Shown: positions 6,537 through 40,855 of the stretch, piece after piece | Position numbering within the stretch: position 1 is the first letter of the stretch | How the letters are laid out: each line of letters begins with the position of its first letter | NCBI GenBank assembly: GCA_013388645.1 | Contig: JACAEV010000035.1 | Coordinates: 1 to 40,855, forward strand | DNA from: Syntrophaceae bacterium | GTDB lineage: Bacteria > Desulfobacterota > BSN033 > UBA1163 | Length of the DNA stretch: 40,855 bases | Direction of reading: 5' to 3' | The notes under the pieces: model-generated | What the model saw: only the letters and a program-made list of their open reading frames with translations | Databases searched by the model: none | Told to the model about the DNA's origin: nothing | Position numbers and translations under genes: made by a program

Positions 6537-8537
6537 ATGATCACGCTCAACCATATTCAGAAACAGTTTGGAAGCAAAATTCTTTTTAAGGACTGCTCCC
6601 TTCAGATCGGAGTGAGGGATCGAGTAGGTCTCATCGGCCCCAACGGTTCCGGGAAGACGACTCTCTTCCGCATGATCTTGGGAGAGGAATCGGTCGATGA
6701 GGGAGAGATCCTCATTGCCAAAGGGGTAACAATCGGCTATCTCCCTCAGGAAGTCATTTCTTTAAGAGGCAACACGGTTCTGACTGAGGTTTTAAAAAGC
6801 CTGACCCATATCGCCTCCCTTCAAGATAAGATGAACATTTTAGAAGAGGAACTTTCATCCATTGAGGATCCAAAAAAACAAGAGAAGCTATCAAAGGAAT
6901 ATGGAAAACTCCAAGAGCGTTACACCCTCCTCGGAGGATATGGCCTCGAGGCTGAGGCAAAGCGTATCCTTTACGGTTTAGGATTTAAAGAAAGGGATTT
7001 TGATCGATCTACTGAGGAGCTGAGTGGGGGATGGCTGATGCGCATCGCCCTGGCAAAAATTCTTCTCCAATCTCCTGATCTCCTCCTTCTTGATGAGCCG
7101 ACCAATCACCTCGATTTGGCCTCCCTCATCTGGCTGGAGGAATTTTTAATCAATTATCCAGGTGCCATGGTGATCGTTTCCCACGATCGGGTTTTTCTGA
7201 ACCATCTCATCGATCGGATTGCAGAGATTGAAGCTCAAAAAATTGATCTCTATTATGGTGACTATGACCATTACTTACAGGAAAAGGAGTCTCGGATTCA
7301 AATTCTCGAAGCCACCTATAAAACTCAGCAGAGGAAAATTGAACAAACCGAACGGTTTATTGAACGATTTCGGGCTAAAAACACCAAATCGAGCCAGGTT
7401 CAAAGTCGAATTAAGATGCTCGAAAAAATTGAGCGAATTGAACTTCCAGAAAAAAAGAAAGAGATTCGATTCCGCTTCCCTGCCCCAAAAAGGAGCGGCC
7501 ATAAGGTGGTGGAGGTAAAAAATCTTCATAAATGTTATGGAGAGACAGTGGTCTATCAGGGGATCGATCTTAATCTCTACCGAGGAGACAAAGTGGCTCT
7601 GGTCGGCCCCAATGGGGCGGGGAAATCGACCCTTCTCAAAATTTTGGCAGGTGTTCTTGATTTTGAAGAAGGGGAGGTGGTGTTAGGCAAGGATGTAACC
7701 CGAGCCTACTTTGCCCAACATCAGTTTGATCTCCTCCATCCAGAAAATACGGTCTTTGAAGAACTTCTATCCGTTGCCACGGATGAAAGCCAGACAGACC
7801 TTCGGACGATTCTGGGAACCTTCCTCTTTAGTGGAGATGAGATAGAGAAAAAAGTCTCTGTTTTAAGCGGTGGGGAAAAGAGTCGCCTGATTTTGGCAAA
7901 GATGCTCCTCAAGCCTGCCAATTTTCTTCTCTTGGATGAACCCACCAGCCATCTGGACATTCCTTCTCGAAATGTCCTGGAGGCGGCTTTGAAACAATTT
8001 CAGGGAACCCTCTGCCTCATCACTCATGACCGTCACCTGATCAATGAAATTGCCAATAAGGTCATCGAGATTGATCAGGGAGTCCCGCATCTCTACCCTG
8101 GAAACTATGATTATTACCTTTACAAAAAACAGCAAGGCCCCGTTCAAGAGACTGAGAAAGAAGTAAAAAACGAGGCTAAGGTCAAGGTTGAGGAAAAAGA
8201 AAAATCTGGAAAAAAGAAAACAACATACATGGCGAAAGAGGAGAGGCGAAAAAGAGCACAGGAAATTGACCAATTTAAAAAGCAACTCTCCAGTCTTGAG
8301 AAGAGATTTCAGGAAGTCGAAAAATCTTTACACGATGCCACCCAAAAACTGGACCAACTCAACCAAAAACTTTCTGATCCGAATCTCTACTTAAATCAGC
8401 AAGAAACTTATGAAACCGTCCAGACCCATCAACAGGTGAAGGAACAGGTGAAAGAGCTGACCCAACTCTGGGAATTCCTCGCTCTGGAGTTGGAAGAATT
8501 AAAAATGGCAAACCTCCTGTCCAATCCTAAAAATTAG
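6537..8537 (+). CDS. ABC-F family ATPase (Uup/YheS-like)
   Basis: 666 residues with two soluble ABC domains and no membrane segment, the mark of the ABC-F class that acts on ribosomes rather than in transport. First domain: Walker A GPNGSGKTT near 36-44, signature LSGGWLMRIALAK near 161, Walker B DLLLLDEPTNHLD near 180. A charged linker (YKTQQRKIEQTERFIERFRAKN) corresponds to the P-site tRNA interaction motif region. Second domain: GPNGAGKST near 360, LSGGEKSRLILAK near 444, LLLDEPTSHLD. A lysine/glutamate-rich stretch (about 540-580) and a C-terminal coiled coil follow, as in Uup/YheS. The likely job is to rescue stalled ribosomes or assist translation of difficult sequences. An antibiotic-resistance role is possible but not indicated. 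Confidence 0.9.
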   Translation: MITLNHIQKQFGSKILFKDCSLQIGVRDRVGLIGPNGSGKTTLFRMILGEESVDEGEILIAKGVTIGYLPQEVISLRGNTVLTEVLKSLTHIASLQDKMNILEEELSSIEDPKKQEKLSKEYGKLQERYTLLGGYGLEAEAKRILYGLGFKERDFDRSTEELSGGWLMRIALAKILLQSPDLLLLDEPTNHLDLASLIWLEEFLINYPGAMVIVSHDRVFLNHLIDRIAEIEAQKIDLYYGDYDHYLQEKESRIQILEATYKTQQRKIEQTERFIERFRAKNTKSSQVQSRIKMLEKIERIELPEKKKEIRFRFPAPKRSGHKVVEVKNLHKCYGETVVYQGIDLNLYRGDKVALVGPNGAGKSTLLKILAGVLDFEEGEVVLGKDVTRAYFAQHQFDLLHPENTVFEELLSVATDESQTDLRTILGTFLFSGDEIEKKVSVLSGGEKSRLILAKMLLKPANFLLLDEPTSHLDIPSRNVLEAALKQFQGTLCLITHDRHLINEIANKVIEIDQGVPHLYPGNYDYYLYKKQQGPVQETEKEVKNEAKVKVEEKEKSGKKKTTYMAKEERRKRAQEIDQFKKQLSSLEKRFQEVEKSLHDATQKLDQLNQKLSDPNLYLNQQETYETVQTHQQVKEQVKELTQLWEFLALELEELKMANLLSNPKN

Positions 8538-37295: not shown

Positions 37296-37718
37296 TTATT
37301 TGCAAATCGCTTTGAATAGTTTTTCTTGGATGGTTCCTGGACTTACGATTCCCCACCCTAAATTTTTATCTTCTCCTAAATACGTCGCCCTTTGTGAAAA
37401 GAAAGTTCTCTGTAATTCTTTATATTCTCTGTTGGCACAATTTAATTCATATAGTTCTATGGAAAAACTTAACAACCGAAATTCCTTCCCCAATCGTGTT
37501 GCGAACCCCTTTGCCCCTTCCTGGGTATACACCACCTTGCTCCACACTCGGACGACGTTTTTAGAGGGGTGAATGATTTTTTCTGTATCATAGTAGTAAG
37601 TGGCAAAGCCATCCTCCCCATATGGCCGCCAATTCTGCCCCCAAAGCTCTGCGTGAGCAAGGAATATCCATCCGATGCATAGAAGAATGATGCCCGATCT
37701 CCTTAGTAAGGACTTCAT
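37296..37718 (-). CDS. Secreted surface-adhesin-E-like protein
   Basis: 140 residues. Signal peptide MKSLLRRSGIILLCIGWIFL, cut near AHAELWGQ, then a single compact domain. WRPYGEDGFATYYYDTEKI, VRVWSKVVYTQEGAKG, SIELYELNCANREYKELQ and PGTIQEKLFKAICK match the small adhesin E/DUF-like beta domain seen in many proteobacterial envelope proteins, usually with a conserved Cys pair (here in NCANRE and AICK, likely disulfide). The gene begins 4 bases after the stop of the ERR-motif gene upstream on the same strand, so the three leftward genes are one operon. Function is only inferred from the family. Confidence 0.7.
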   Translation of the reverse strand: MKSLLRRSGIILLCIGWIFLAHAELWGQNWRPYGEDGFATYYYDTEKIIHPSKNVVRVWSKVVYTQEGAKGFATRLGKEFRLLSFSIELYELNCANREYKELQRTFFSQRATYLGEDKNLGWGIVSPGTIQEKLFKAICK

Positions 37719-37722
37719 CAGG

Positions 37723-38022
37723 TCAGCCCTCTTTTCCCTTCATCTCCCGTTCGATCCCTTTCATCATCTCTAAGTACTCTTCTTTATTTAAGATTCCCTT
37801 ATCGAAAAGCCACTTGGTTTCGTCCTTTACCTTTAATTCGTTGGGGACCACGAAAATAGACTGCGTATCTTTTACCAAACGACCAAACGTTAGTTTTGCC
37901 CATTTCAAGCCAGACTCAATTTGGGACTTGCCCCTCATATCTTTCCTTCTCTCAAGTAACACGCCTAAAAGTTCAGCTTTTTTAAGAATAAAATTCTTGT
38001 AAAAAACTTTGTATATCAACAT
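37723..38022 (-). CDS. ERR-motif small protein, SHOCT-like tail (paralog 3)
   Basis: 99 residues from the ATG at 38022 (GGAG 7 bases upstream); a longer frame to 38106 overlaps the ribbon-helix-helix gene and lacks such a site. Residues 1-60 (MLIYKVFYKNF...AELLGVLLERRKD...SGLKWAKLTFG) resemble the two rightward paralogs at 38861 and 39273, which have ELIGVLPERRRD...SWGKLLLG and ELVGILPERRKN...RWGENIFG. The last 30 residues (WLFDKGILNKEEYLEMMKGI) look like a SHOCT-type short C-terminal domain. It lies between an RHH regulator and a secreted protein in an apparent operon. Family unknown to me. Confidence 0.65.
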   Translation of the reverse strand: MLIYKVFYKNFILKKAELLGVLLERRKDMRGKSQIESGLKWAKLTFGRLVKDTQSIFVVPNELKVKDETKWLFDKGILNKEEYLEMMKGIEREMKGKEG

Positions 38023-38062
38023 CTCTTTTCTCCATGCTTCTTTTGGTACCGATCGATCATGG

Positions 38063-38212
38063 TTATTTCCGGGCTCCTTTTCCTTCGTATTTTCCCAACC
38101 ACTCATCCAAAGCCCTTCGGATGAGGTCGGATACGGTCAAGCCTGTTTTTTTTGAGATCGCTTTAAATTTCTTCATTTGGGGTTCTGTCAAATAAATATT
38201 GGTTCTGATCAT
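38063..38212 (-). CDS. Ribbon-helix-helix (CopG-like) DNA-binding protein
   Basis: 49 residues from the ATG at 38212. MIRTNIYLTEPQMKKFKAIS is the beta-strand and first helix, and KKTGLTVSDLIRRALDEWLGKYEGK is the second helix, a standard CopG/Arc-type fold. A longer start at 38260 would fall inside the promoter -10 region and is excluded. These proteins are usually autoregulators, often antitoxins. Here it heads an operon with the ERR-motif protein and adhesin-E-like protein, 40 bp upstream of the former. Two ATACAT direct repeats overlap its -10 box and are candidate operators. Confidence 0.8.
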   Translation of the reverse strand: MIRTNIYLTEPQMKKFKAISKKTGLTVSDLIRRALDEWLGKYEGKGARK

Positions 38213-38243
38213 TGCCTCCCCCTCCCAATCTCTTTTAGGGCGA

Positions 38244-38280
38244 ATACATTCTATATACATCTTTTCAACTTATCTGTCAA
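38244..38280 (-). promoter_or_regulatory. Promoter and candidate operator of the RHH operon
   Basis: On the minus strand TTGACA (38280-38275), 17-base spacer, TATATA (38257-38252). Direct repeats ATGTAT lie 11 bp apart (plus-strand ATACAT at 38244-38249 and 38255-38260), on one face of the helix and overlapping the -10 box, as expected for RHH autorepression. Confidence 0.6.
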
Positions 38281-38713
38281 GAATTTTTTTGAAAGCCCTG
38301 AAAACTACTTTCCGCTCTCTTGATTGCTCAGAAGATAAGGGGTTGGGTCTAAAGGCAACGGTAACGATGCCCATATCTTCTATAAAAGGCGATGTCTATC
38401 GTATTTAATAATATTTGTATTATGAAACTACCAAGATCATCCACCATCCTTTTTGACTTGACGAAAATCAAATTGTAAAGAAAATTTACAATTTCTAAAA
38501 AGAGTAAATTAATTAATATAATCGATAAGTCACGTCATTATCATTAAACTATTGTTGGAAATTTTAACATTTTCAAATTATTACAGAATTGTCCATGTAC
38601 ATAAAAATTTTGTAATTATAATTAGTTATAATAATTGCGAAATTTGGTACAAAATATGCTGAATATATATGGGTTTATATATAGCCATACATTTTCAAAT
38701 AAACAATGAGGGT
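38281..38713. other. AT-rich intergenic DNA
   Basis: About 430 bp with no gene. Apart from one dispersed repeat (38354-38371), it is very AT-rich with many short inverted repeats (for example TGTAAAGAAAATTTACA near 38475) but no clear promoter, RNA or ORF. Confidence 0.4.
38354..38371 (+). repeat. Dispersed near-palindromic repeat (GGCAACGGTAA...GATGCC), copy 2
   Basis: GGCAACGGTAACGATGCC, preceded by GTCTAAA; differs from copy 1 (15235-15252) at one of 18 positions. Confidence 0.5.
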
Positions 38714-38835
38714 CTCGTAAAAAAGTCTCCCCACCCGTCACTCATGCGAAAGCAGGAGTCCAGAAGTATTTGAATTCACTGGATTCCCGTTTTCACGGGA
38801 ATGACAATAATCGGCTGAATCGGACTTTTTACGAG
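38714..38835. mobile_element. MITE-like palindromic element
   Basis: 122 bp. The left end CTCGTAAAAAAGTC (38714-38727) is the complement of the right end GACTTTTTACGAG (38823-38835) but for one A. Inside, GGAGTCCAG...CTGGATTCCC and GTCACTC...GGGAATGAC form a second inverted repeat. It has no coding capacity, so any movement would rely on a transposase elsewhere. It ends 25 bp before the ERR-motif gene at 38861. Confidence 0.7.
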
Positions 38836-38860
38836 TTCATCAACAGTGTGAATTAAATAT

Positions 38861-39079
38861 ATGCTGGCTTACGAATTATACGCATTTGATAAGACAAGAG
38901 GATTTGAATTGATTGGGGTTCTTCCCGAGAGAAGAAGAGACCCAAAAAGGATCACAAAGGACTCTGTCATCAGTTGGGGAAAACTGCTTTTGGGTGATAA
39001 CGCTAATAACCAGAACATCTATTTCAAGCGGATCACTTTGGATCATACAGGAAGAATTGTCTGGTTTAACCCTAAATGA
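38861..39079 (+). CDS. ERR-motif small protein (paralog 1)
   Basis: 72 residues, family not recognised. It is about 45% identical by eye to the protein at 39273 over its length, sharing AYE-Y, ELIGVLPERRRDPKRIT, S-x3-WGK, IYF-x3-T and TG-x-I-x3-NP. No signal peptide or membrane segment. The ribosome-binding site is weak. The end of the MITE-like element is 25 bp upstream and may provide or disrupt its promoter. The conserved ERR and Trp residues suggest a nucleotide- or protein-binding surface, but that is a guess. Confidence 0.6.
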   Translation: MLAYELYAFDKTRGFELIGVLPERRRDPKRITKDSVISWGKLLLGDNANNQNIYFKRITLDHTGRIVWFNPK

Positions 39080-39272
39080 TAAAGACCATTTAAGAAGGAC
39101 CCCACTTTTCGTGATTGCAGGAGAGATGAGTGAGAAGTTTCCTGATTAACAAAAACTTATCTCTTTATTATTGGCTCAAAAAGAGAATTGGAAAAGAGAG
39201 GGCATTTCGGGTAGCCAGTGCGTTTGAGAAGGTTATCCTTCTCTTCGGAAGAGAGCGGATAGGGGATCATAT

Positions 39273-39521
39273 ATGGTAGCTTATGAATTTTACTTGCATG
39301 ACCCAGTGAAGGGGTATGAATTAGTTGGGATACTGCCTGAGCGGAGAAAGAACCCTGAAAGAATTACTCAAGAGTCCATTATGCGATGGGGGGAAAATAT
39401 TTTTGGTAAAGACTTAAATGTCAAAGATATTTATTTCATTCAAGTCACCATTAATGCAGATACCGGAAATATTATTCGCCCGAATCCATTTTTTGTTAAT
39501 CAGAAGAAAATGAAAAAATAG
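39273..39521 (+). CDS. ERR-motif small protein (paralog 2)
   Basis: 82 residues. MVAYEFYLHDPVKGYELVGI then LPERRKNPERITQESIMRWG and DIYFIQVTINADTGNII. It is a paralog of the protein at 38861 and, more distantly, of the one at 37723. The C-terminal tail is basic (VNQKKMKK). It starts at ATG 39273, with AGGGG nearby upstream. It is followed after 53 bp by a convergent polysaccharide deacetylase gene. No assigned family. Confidence 0.6.
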   Translation: MVAYEFYLHDPVKGYELVGILPERRKNPERITQESIMRWGENIFGKDLNVKDIYFIQVTINADTGNIIRPNPFFVNQKKMKK

Positions 39522-40508: not shown

Positions 40509-40855
40509 ATGGCGACGCTCAATTTTAAGGGGAAAACATTTGTTCAGAATCACCATCTGACGGTGAAGTATCATCAGCTCATCCCCCAAAAAGATAAAAG
40601 TTTAACAGACAAGGTCAGTCTTAACGATAACCTCATCATCTATGGGGATAATCTCAAGGCTTTAAAAGCCCTTCTTCCAACTTATGCAGGTAAAGTGAAA
40701 TGTATTTACATTGATCCACCTTATAATACAGGAAATGAAAGATGGGTCTATAATGACAATGTGAACAGCCCGATGATGCAGGAATGGCTGGGGAAGGTCG
40801 TCGACAGGGAAGACTTAACCCGCCACGACAAATGGCTCTGCATGATGATGCCGAG
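40509..40855 (+). CDS. mod: Type III restriction-modification DNA methyltransferase, N-terminal part
   Basis: The first 115 codons of a gene that runs off the window, so it has no stop here. Adenine-methyltransferase motif IV is IYIDPPYNTGNERWVYND with DPPY at 69-72; the following NVNSPMMQEWLGKVVDREDL and RHDKWLCMMMP are characteristic of type III Mod subunits. The GDNLKALKALLPTY stretch just before is the usual lead-in. It should be followed by a target recognition domain and, outside the window, by a res helicase/nuclease gene. It marks the start of a defence locus beside the accessory genes of 37.3-39.5 kb. Confidence 0.88.
   Translation, partial: MATLNFKGKTFVQNHHLTVKYHQLIPQKDKSLTDKVSLNDNLIIYGDNLKALKALLPTYAGKVKCIYIDPPYNTGNERWVYNDNVNSPMMQEWLGKVVDREDLTRHDKWLCMMMP

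Follow-up and report, generated by a model that had tools for sequence, protein, structure and literature searches.

Small ERR-motif proteins and an overlapping microgene in putative sigma-54-dependent operons of a Syntrophaceae-like lineage

The window, a stretch of 40,855 nt of bacterial DNA that we analyzed as a whole, contains three genes for small proteins with a common E-R-R motif, two of subfamily A (A1 and A2) and one of subfamily B (Table 1). A preliminary description of the locus had pointed out the motif by eye, and the three open reading frames are indeed present, with the conserved columns as they had been read; the columns common to all three proteins include Y4, E16, L17, G19, L21, E23-R24-R25, S35, W39 and G45. 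The ATG at 38022 is supported as the start of B because homologues start there. A fourth conserved gene of the cluster, the microgene U, had been missed. The neighboring features that had been named are real as well: the RHH regulator (RHH_1), the MITE with its matches across the genome, and a type III methyltransferase gene, the start of which can be read at 40510-40855, where it is cut by the contig end. The pair of RHH and Adhesin_E genes also adjoins an A1 orthologue in another genome (G003:C186, L172), with B absent between them, and this is the only related locus at which the RHH gene recurs. We considered B as a toxin with the RHH protein as its antitoxin and rejected the idea, as B has no constant partner among the neighboring genes of B loci and the RHH gene of G003 pairs with Adhesin_E without B.

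Table 1. Features of the ERR cluster, with positions numbered from the first letter of the window.
Feature	Position	Strand	Remarks
Adhesin_E-like secreted protein	37296-37718	-	PF16747, E 3.2e-13
B, ERR protein of subfamily B (99 aa) with C-terminal helix	37723-38022	-	homologous to A; without upstream sigma-54 sites
RHH (CopG-like) regulator	38063-38212	-	upstream of B; RHH_1, E 6.6e-9
Enhancer site 1, TGTAAAGAAAATTTACA, PEP-CTERM-box motif 1, distal, exact	38474-38490	+	154 nt upstream of the sigma-54 site; spacing also seen at G011, G001 and other loci
Enhancer site 2, TGTTGGAAATTTTAACA, proximal, weaker, ends TTAACA	38553-38569	+	75 nt before the sigma-54 site; PWM 13.2
Sigma-54 -24/-12 promoter-like site, TGGTACAAAATATGCT	38645-38660	+	PWM 14.6
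MITE, ~137 bp	38706-38842	.	between the sigma-54 site and A1; 46 genome matches, ~20 of them >90% identical
A1, ERR protein of subfamily A (72 aa)	38861-39079	+	clade with G003, G011 and G004 copies
U, conserved microgene of 49 codons with a GTG start	39130-39279	+	between A1 and A2, its end reaching past the A2 start
A2, ERR protein of subfamily A (82 aa), core predicted as beta-beta-alpha-beta	39273-39521	+	clade with PEP-CTERM-linked G001 copies

BLASTP aligned A1 with A2 at 46% identity (E 4e-26), in line with the roughly 45% estimated by eye, B with A2 at 40% across 63 aa (E 3e-7), and B with A1 at E 7e-6. When the profile of subfamily A, built from 34 sequences, was compared with that of subfamily B, built from 18, the probability was 96.5 and the E-value 7.7e-10, and the copy at 37723-38022 is therefore genuinely homologous to the other two, as had been proposed. 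The consensus of A, of ~60-85 aa, reads 'MxAYEFYxRD...LIGILPERRKxPxRITxESIxNWG...IxFxxVxI'; that of B, of up to ~100 aa, reads 'MIxYKVFxKNYELKKGELxGMLxERRKDLRGxTQIESGLxWAKLTFG...IFVVPxEL' and is followed by the C-terminal helix. Over A, B and U, the dN/dS values of closest pairs were mostly 0.05-0.4, indicative of purifying selection, with most values at 0.05-0.36 for A (two pairs were higher, with few differences), 0.05-0.35 for B and 0.05-0.2 for U. A, B and U are thus genuine protein-coding families. Pfam contained no match for A or B, whether single proteins or both subfamilies member by member were searched, and NCBIfam, PADLOC and the PDB sequences contained none for the ERR proteins of the window. 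The earlier view of an accessory family without a recognized domain thus holds, with no known housekeeping family matched in Pfam or NCBIfam, and the ERR proteins represent an undescribed bacterial family.

The genomes used for comparison are mostly or all fragmented MAGs, 17 of them from the family of the window. Subfamily A occurs in three to seven dispersed copies in most genomes of this family. Some genomes of a single other family of the phylum have one copy apiece, and beyond these A is rare; it is all but confined to one lineage of Syntrophaceae-labelled Thermodesulfobacteriota. At four loci of another family of the phylum (L117, L148, L149, L151), the single A gene has no strong sigma-54 site and lies upstream of apparent MoaD-like and aldehyde ferredoxin oxidoreductase genes. 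Two nearly alike A copies, which also have similar flanks (L152:541-720 and L156:6751-6930), come from genomes that belong to separate families of the phylum, a likeness that may reflect either lateral transfer or MAG contamination. B is present in one or two copies in nearly all genomes of the family of the window. At one B locus in G009 (L131, ~7600-8000), a BrnT/BrnA-like toxin-antitoxin pair, recognized by eye, is located divergently upstream of B, an arrangement that is not conserved elsewhere. U was detected in 22 copies in 11 of the 17 genomes, and outside the family none was found in a sample of 395 genomes of the phylum.

In a maximum-likelihood tree, of which only the starred forks were used because it has few columns, A1 and A2 fall into different supported clades, each together with copies of other genomes (Table 1), and B sits on a long separate branch as a deep sister to A. 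Moreover, the order A1-U-A2 is collinear with a locus of another genus (G011:C138) over 632 bp at 69% DNA identity. According to these data, the cluster is not a recent local expansion, as had been suggested for it; the three ERR genes of the window are old, scattered members of their family.

The genes next to A vary from copy to copy, with four recurrent settings: after U, after a PEP-CTERM gene, after a gene resembling a histidine kinase (HK), and beside a DUF5658 gene. A lies directly downstream of 11 of the 22 U copies, and the two genes overlap or abut at no fewer than eight loci (at least 8); one further U copy precedes a DUF5658-like gene. Three U copies have another neighbor in place of A: at L213, L215 and L216, the U-like microgene overlaps or abuts a gene for a 103-aa protein ('FKCPHNLFW...WTPEEISDAWGLTREE') that has no Pfam match and, by eye only, looks like a free-standing sigma-region-4 helix-turn-helix. 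PEP-CTERM genes are rare, amounting to 36 in the 17 genomes of the family, and for seven of them the next gene is A or U-A; three of these seven cases are related duplicates in G001, in which the DNA similarity (~500 bp) spans the PEP-CTERM tail through A. Within one prsK-prsR-prsT locus, an A gene is convergent to a PEP-CTERM gene; a sister copy of this A gene is found next to prsT. A also occurs in genomes in which no PEP-CTERM gene was detected. In six species (L030, L032, L034, L037, L052, L161), A follows a gene for a degenerate, HK-like protein of ~285 aa that has no Pfam match and carries its own sigma-54-like promoter.

Upstream regions were scored with a sigma-54 matrix trained on the promoters of PEP-CTERM genes only, at a cut-off of 14, and 285 neighboring genes from the same neighborhoods of the same MAGs served as controls. 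Sites at or above the cut-off preceded 29 of 45 A-containing modules vs 2.1% of the controls (Fisher 2e-24), counts that are not fully independent because orthologues or duplicates occur among the HK-led and PEP-led modules. When PEP-led modules were left out, 25 of 40 A modules still scored at least 14. A sigma-54 site is missing from several A modules, chiefly those of family f21. Scoring enhancer and sigma-54 box jointly placed 10 of 33 solo A genes above the 99th percentile of the controls (p 7e-9). None of the B genes reached this level, and only 1 of 19 had a sigma-54 score of 14 or more; with no enrichment in either scan, membership of B in the sigma-54 regulon was rejected. We infer that B is an older homologue of A that stands outside the regulon. 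Given the sigma-54 and enhancer control of A modules and the HK-like neighbors in six species, the earlier suggestion of a signalling-related family is partly borne out.

Two enhancer classes accompany these promoters. The first, motif 1, is a 17-nt element (TGTNRR-N5-TTTACA), often paired, that lies 71-77 and/or 151-155 nt before many of the sigma-54 sites. It corresponds to the PEP-CTERM box, a 17-nt motif ending in TTTACA and sometimes repeated, from which a spacer of 32-92 nt leads to a sigma-54 site, which in turn precedes the start codon by 23-221 nt (Haft et al., 2006; PMC1569441). RpoN dependence has been demonstrated for the PEP-CTERM gene pepA in Aquincola (PMC9850573). The window has this layout, with 75 nt from motif to sigma-54 site and 200 nt from there to the A1 start, of which ~137 nt are the MITE. 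DNA homology to G011 starts at 38841, immediately past the MITE, and without the element the A1 start would lie ~63 nt from the sigma-54 site; the MITE in the A1-U-A2 leader is probably a recent insertion. PrsR itself is encoded in the genome of the window (G000:C92, TIGR02915, E 6.5e-185), near its single PEP-CTERM gene. As PrsR was above the cut-off in only 4 of the 17 genomes, other activators must serve some of the boxes. The second enhancer is palindromic, TGTGGAAA-N3-TTTCCACT, and its distance to the sigma-54 site is mostly 72-74 nt and in some cases also 116-119 nt; it is found upstream of A, U, HK-like and DUF5658 genes (e.g. L024:4714-4732, L125:1179-1197). This class suggests another, undescribed sigma-54 activator. 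The window's own genome harbors a second U-A pair (G000:C85, L125:734-1052), at which a strong sigma-54 site is combined with a type II enhancer.

The A modules thus resemble the PEP-CTERM/EpsH (exosortase) regulon, governed by PrsK-PrsR and sigma-54, in their two-part promoter, composed of motif 1 followed by -24(GG)/-12(GC), and in their physical linkage to PEP-CTERM genes, prsK, prsR and prsT. Whereas PEP-CTERM proteins carry a C-terminal PEP motif, a transmembrane segment and a basic tail, the sequences of A, B and U have no such tail. Furthermore, A and U lack a signal peptide and are not described members of that regulon, and many A modules carry the other enhancer. From the sequence evidence, the placement of A/U modules in sigma-54 regulons, with that of the window being of the PEP-CTERM-box type, is well supported.

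Could the linkage to sigma-54 sites merely record where a mobile element has landed? U-A might be a small toxin-antitoxin-like or mobile cassette that inserted behind many promoters, as would fit the overlap within a small gene pair, the dispersal of the copies, the duplication in G001 of ~500 bp of PEP-CTERM tail together with A, and the truncation of some copies (G004:C54, L017, L159). We regard this as improbable. The obligate pairing expected of a type II toxin-antitoxin system is not seen, since half of the U copies have no A and most A copies have no U; each gene often stands alone, and therefore neither requires the other. Nor did we find toxin-antitoxin or defence profile matches, terminal repeats or an integrase, and A genes of several clades have preserved specific spacings of the enhancers in front of them.

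AlphaFold predicted beta-beta-alpha-beta cores for the ERR proteins at medium confidence (pLDDT 71-74). In a Foldseek search, the B model (pLDDT 71) had as its top match PaaB, a subunit of phenylacetyl-CoA epoxidase (3egr/4iit, probability 0.94-0.96, TM (target) 0.62), a protein of similar length with the same predicted order of strands and helix. A and B might accordingly adopt the PaaB fold and act as the bridging subunit of some enzyme complex, but we judge this unlikely: the E-value of the match was only 0.14-0.19, the A model matched no PDB entry by fold, PaaB included, and comparison with a profile of eight PaaB sequences (PF06243) was not significant (hhalign probability below 1, no Pfam match). 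PaaB also lacks the ERR motif, and A and B lack a paa gene context, with no recurring PaaA/PaaC-like neighbor. The C-terminal helix of B is weakly similar to the SHOCT C-terminal domain (PF09851, E 0.03-0.05), although the match falls below the Pfam cut-off and is absent from A. A PilZ-like RxxxR reading of 'ERRKDxR' was dropped because the spacing is unequal in A and B and there is no PilZ match.

That an accessory family with a role in defence has recently expanded on the spot, beside a type III restriction system, as the preliminary description had cautiously suggested from three homologues within 1.8 kb and the methylase at the contig end, is highly improbable, given that the copies fall into different clades common to other genera, that neither the methylase nor any other defence gene recurs beside other A or B copies in the neighborhood comparison, that the expected wealth of copies next to RHH or defence genes came down to the single RHH locus in G003, and that the window proteins have no PADLOC match and no relatives in PHROGs or viral contigs.

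With homology, coding constraint, lineage restriction, dispersal and a statistical link to sigma-54 sites, to enhancers and to PEP-CTERM genes established computationally, the explanation that we favor, and hold as a whole to be reasonably probable, is that A and U serve as accessory genes in operons that depend on sigma-54 in this Syntrophaceae-like lineage. One set of operons would belong to the PEP-CTERM/PrsK-PrsR regulon and a second set would use the TGTGGAAA-N3-TTTCCACT enhancer. In the window, A1, U and A2 would share one operon, with two sites of the PrsR type ahead of a sigma-54 site and the recent MITE in the leader. This operon would be turned on, alongside surface and matrix genes, by phosphorylated PrsR or by an activator akin to it, and coupled translation would yield U and A. 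Judging from their context, A and U are probably small cytoplasmic adaptors in sigma-54-driven surface/matrix programs. The conserved E-R-R/W surface of the beta-beta-alpha-beta protein A would bind a partner, be it protein, RNA or nucleotide, and partner-bound A may then tune the program.

To our knowledge, the PEP-CTERM/exosortase surface system has been little characterized on its cytoplasmic side. Tentatively, and with some doubt, we envisage U and A as a new class of small regulators or adaptors through which sigma-54 enhancer systems, those of PrsR and of the second activator, would couple PEP-CTERM production to an intracellular response. U would be the swappable partner in such a class, pairing with A or with the sigma-region-4-like protein, or acting solo. 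Lineage-restricted small proteins and a microprotein that carry the PEP-CTERM promoter box would mean that the regulon extends past surface proteins, and the shared PEP-CTERM switch provides a first testable clue to the function of these anonymous small open reading frames.
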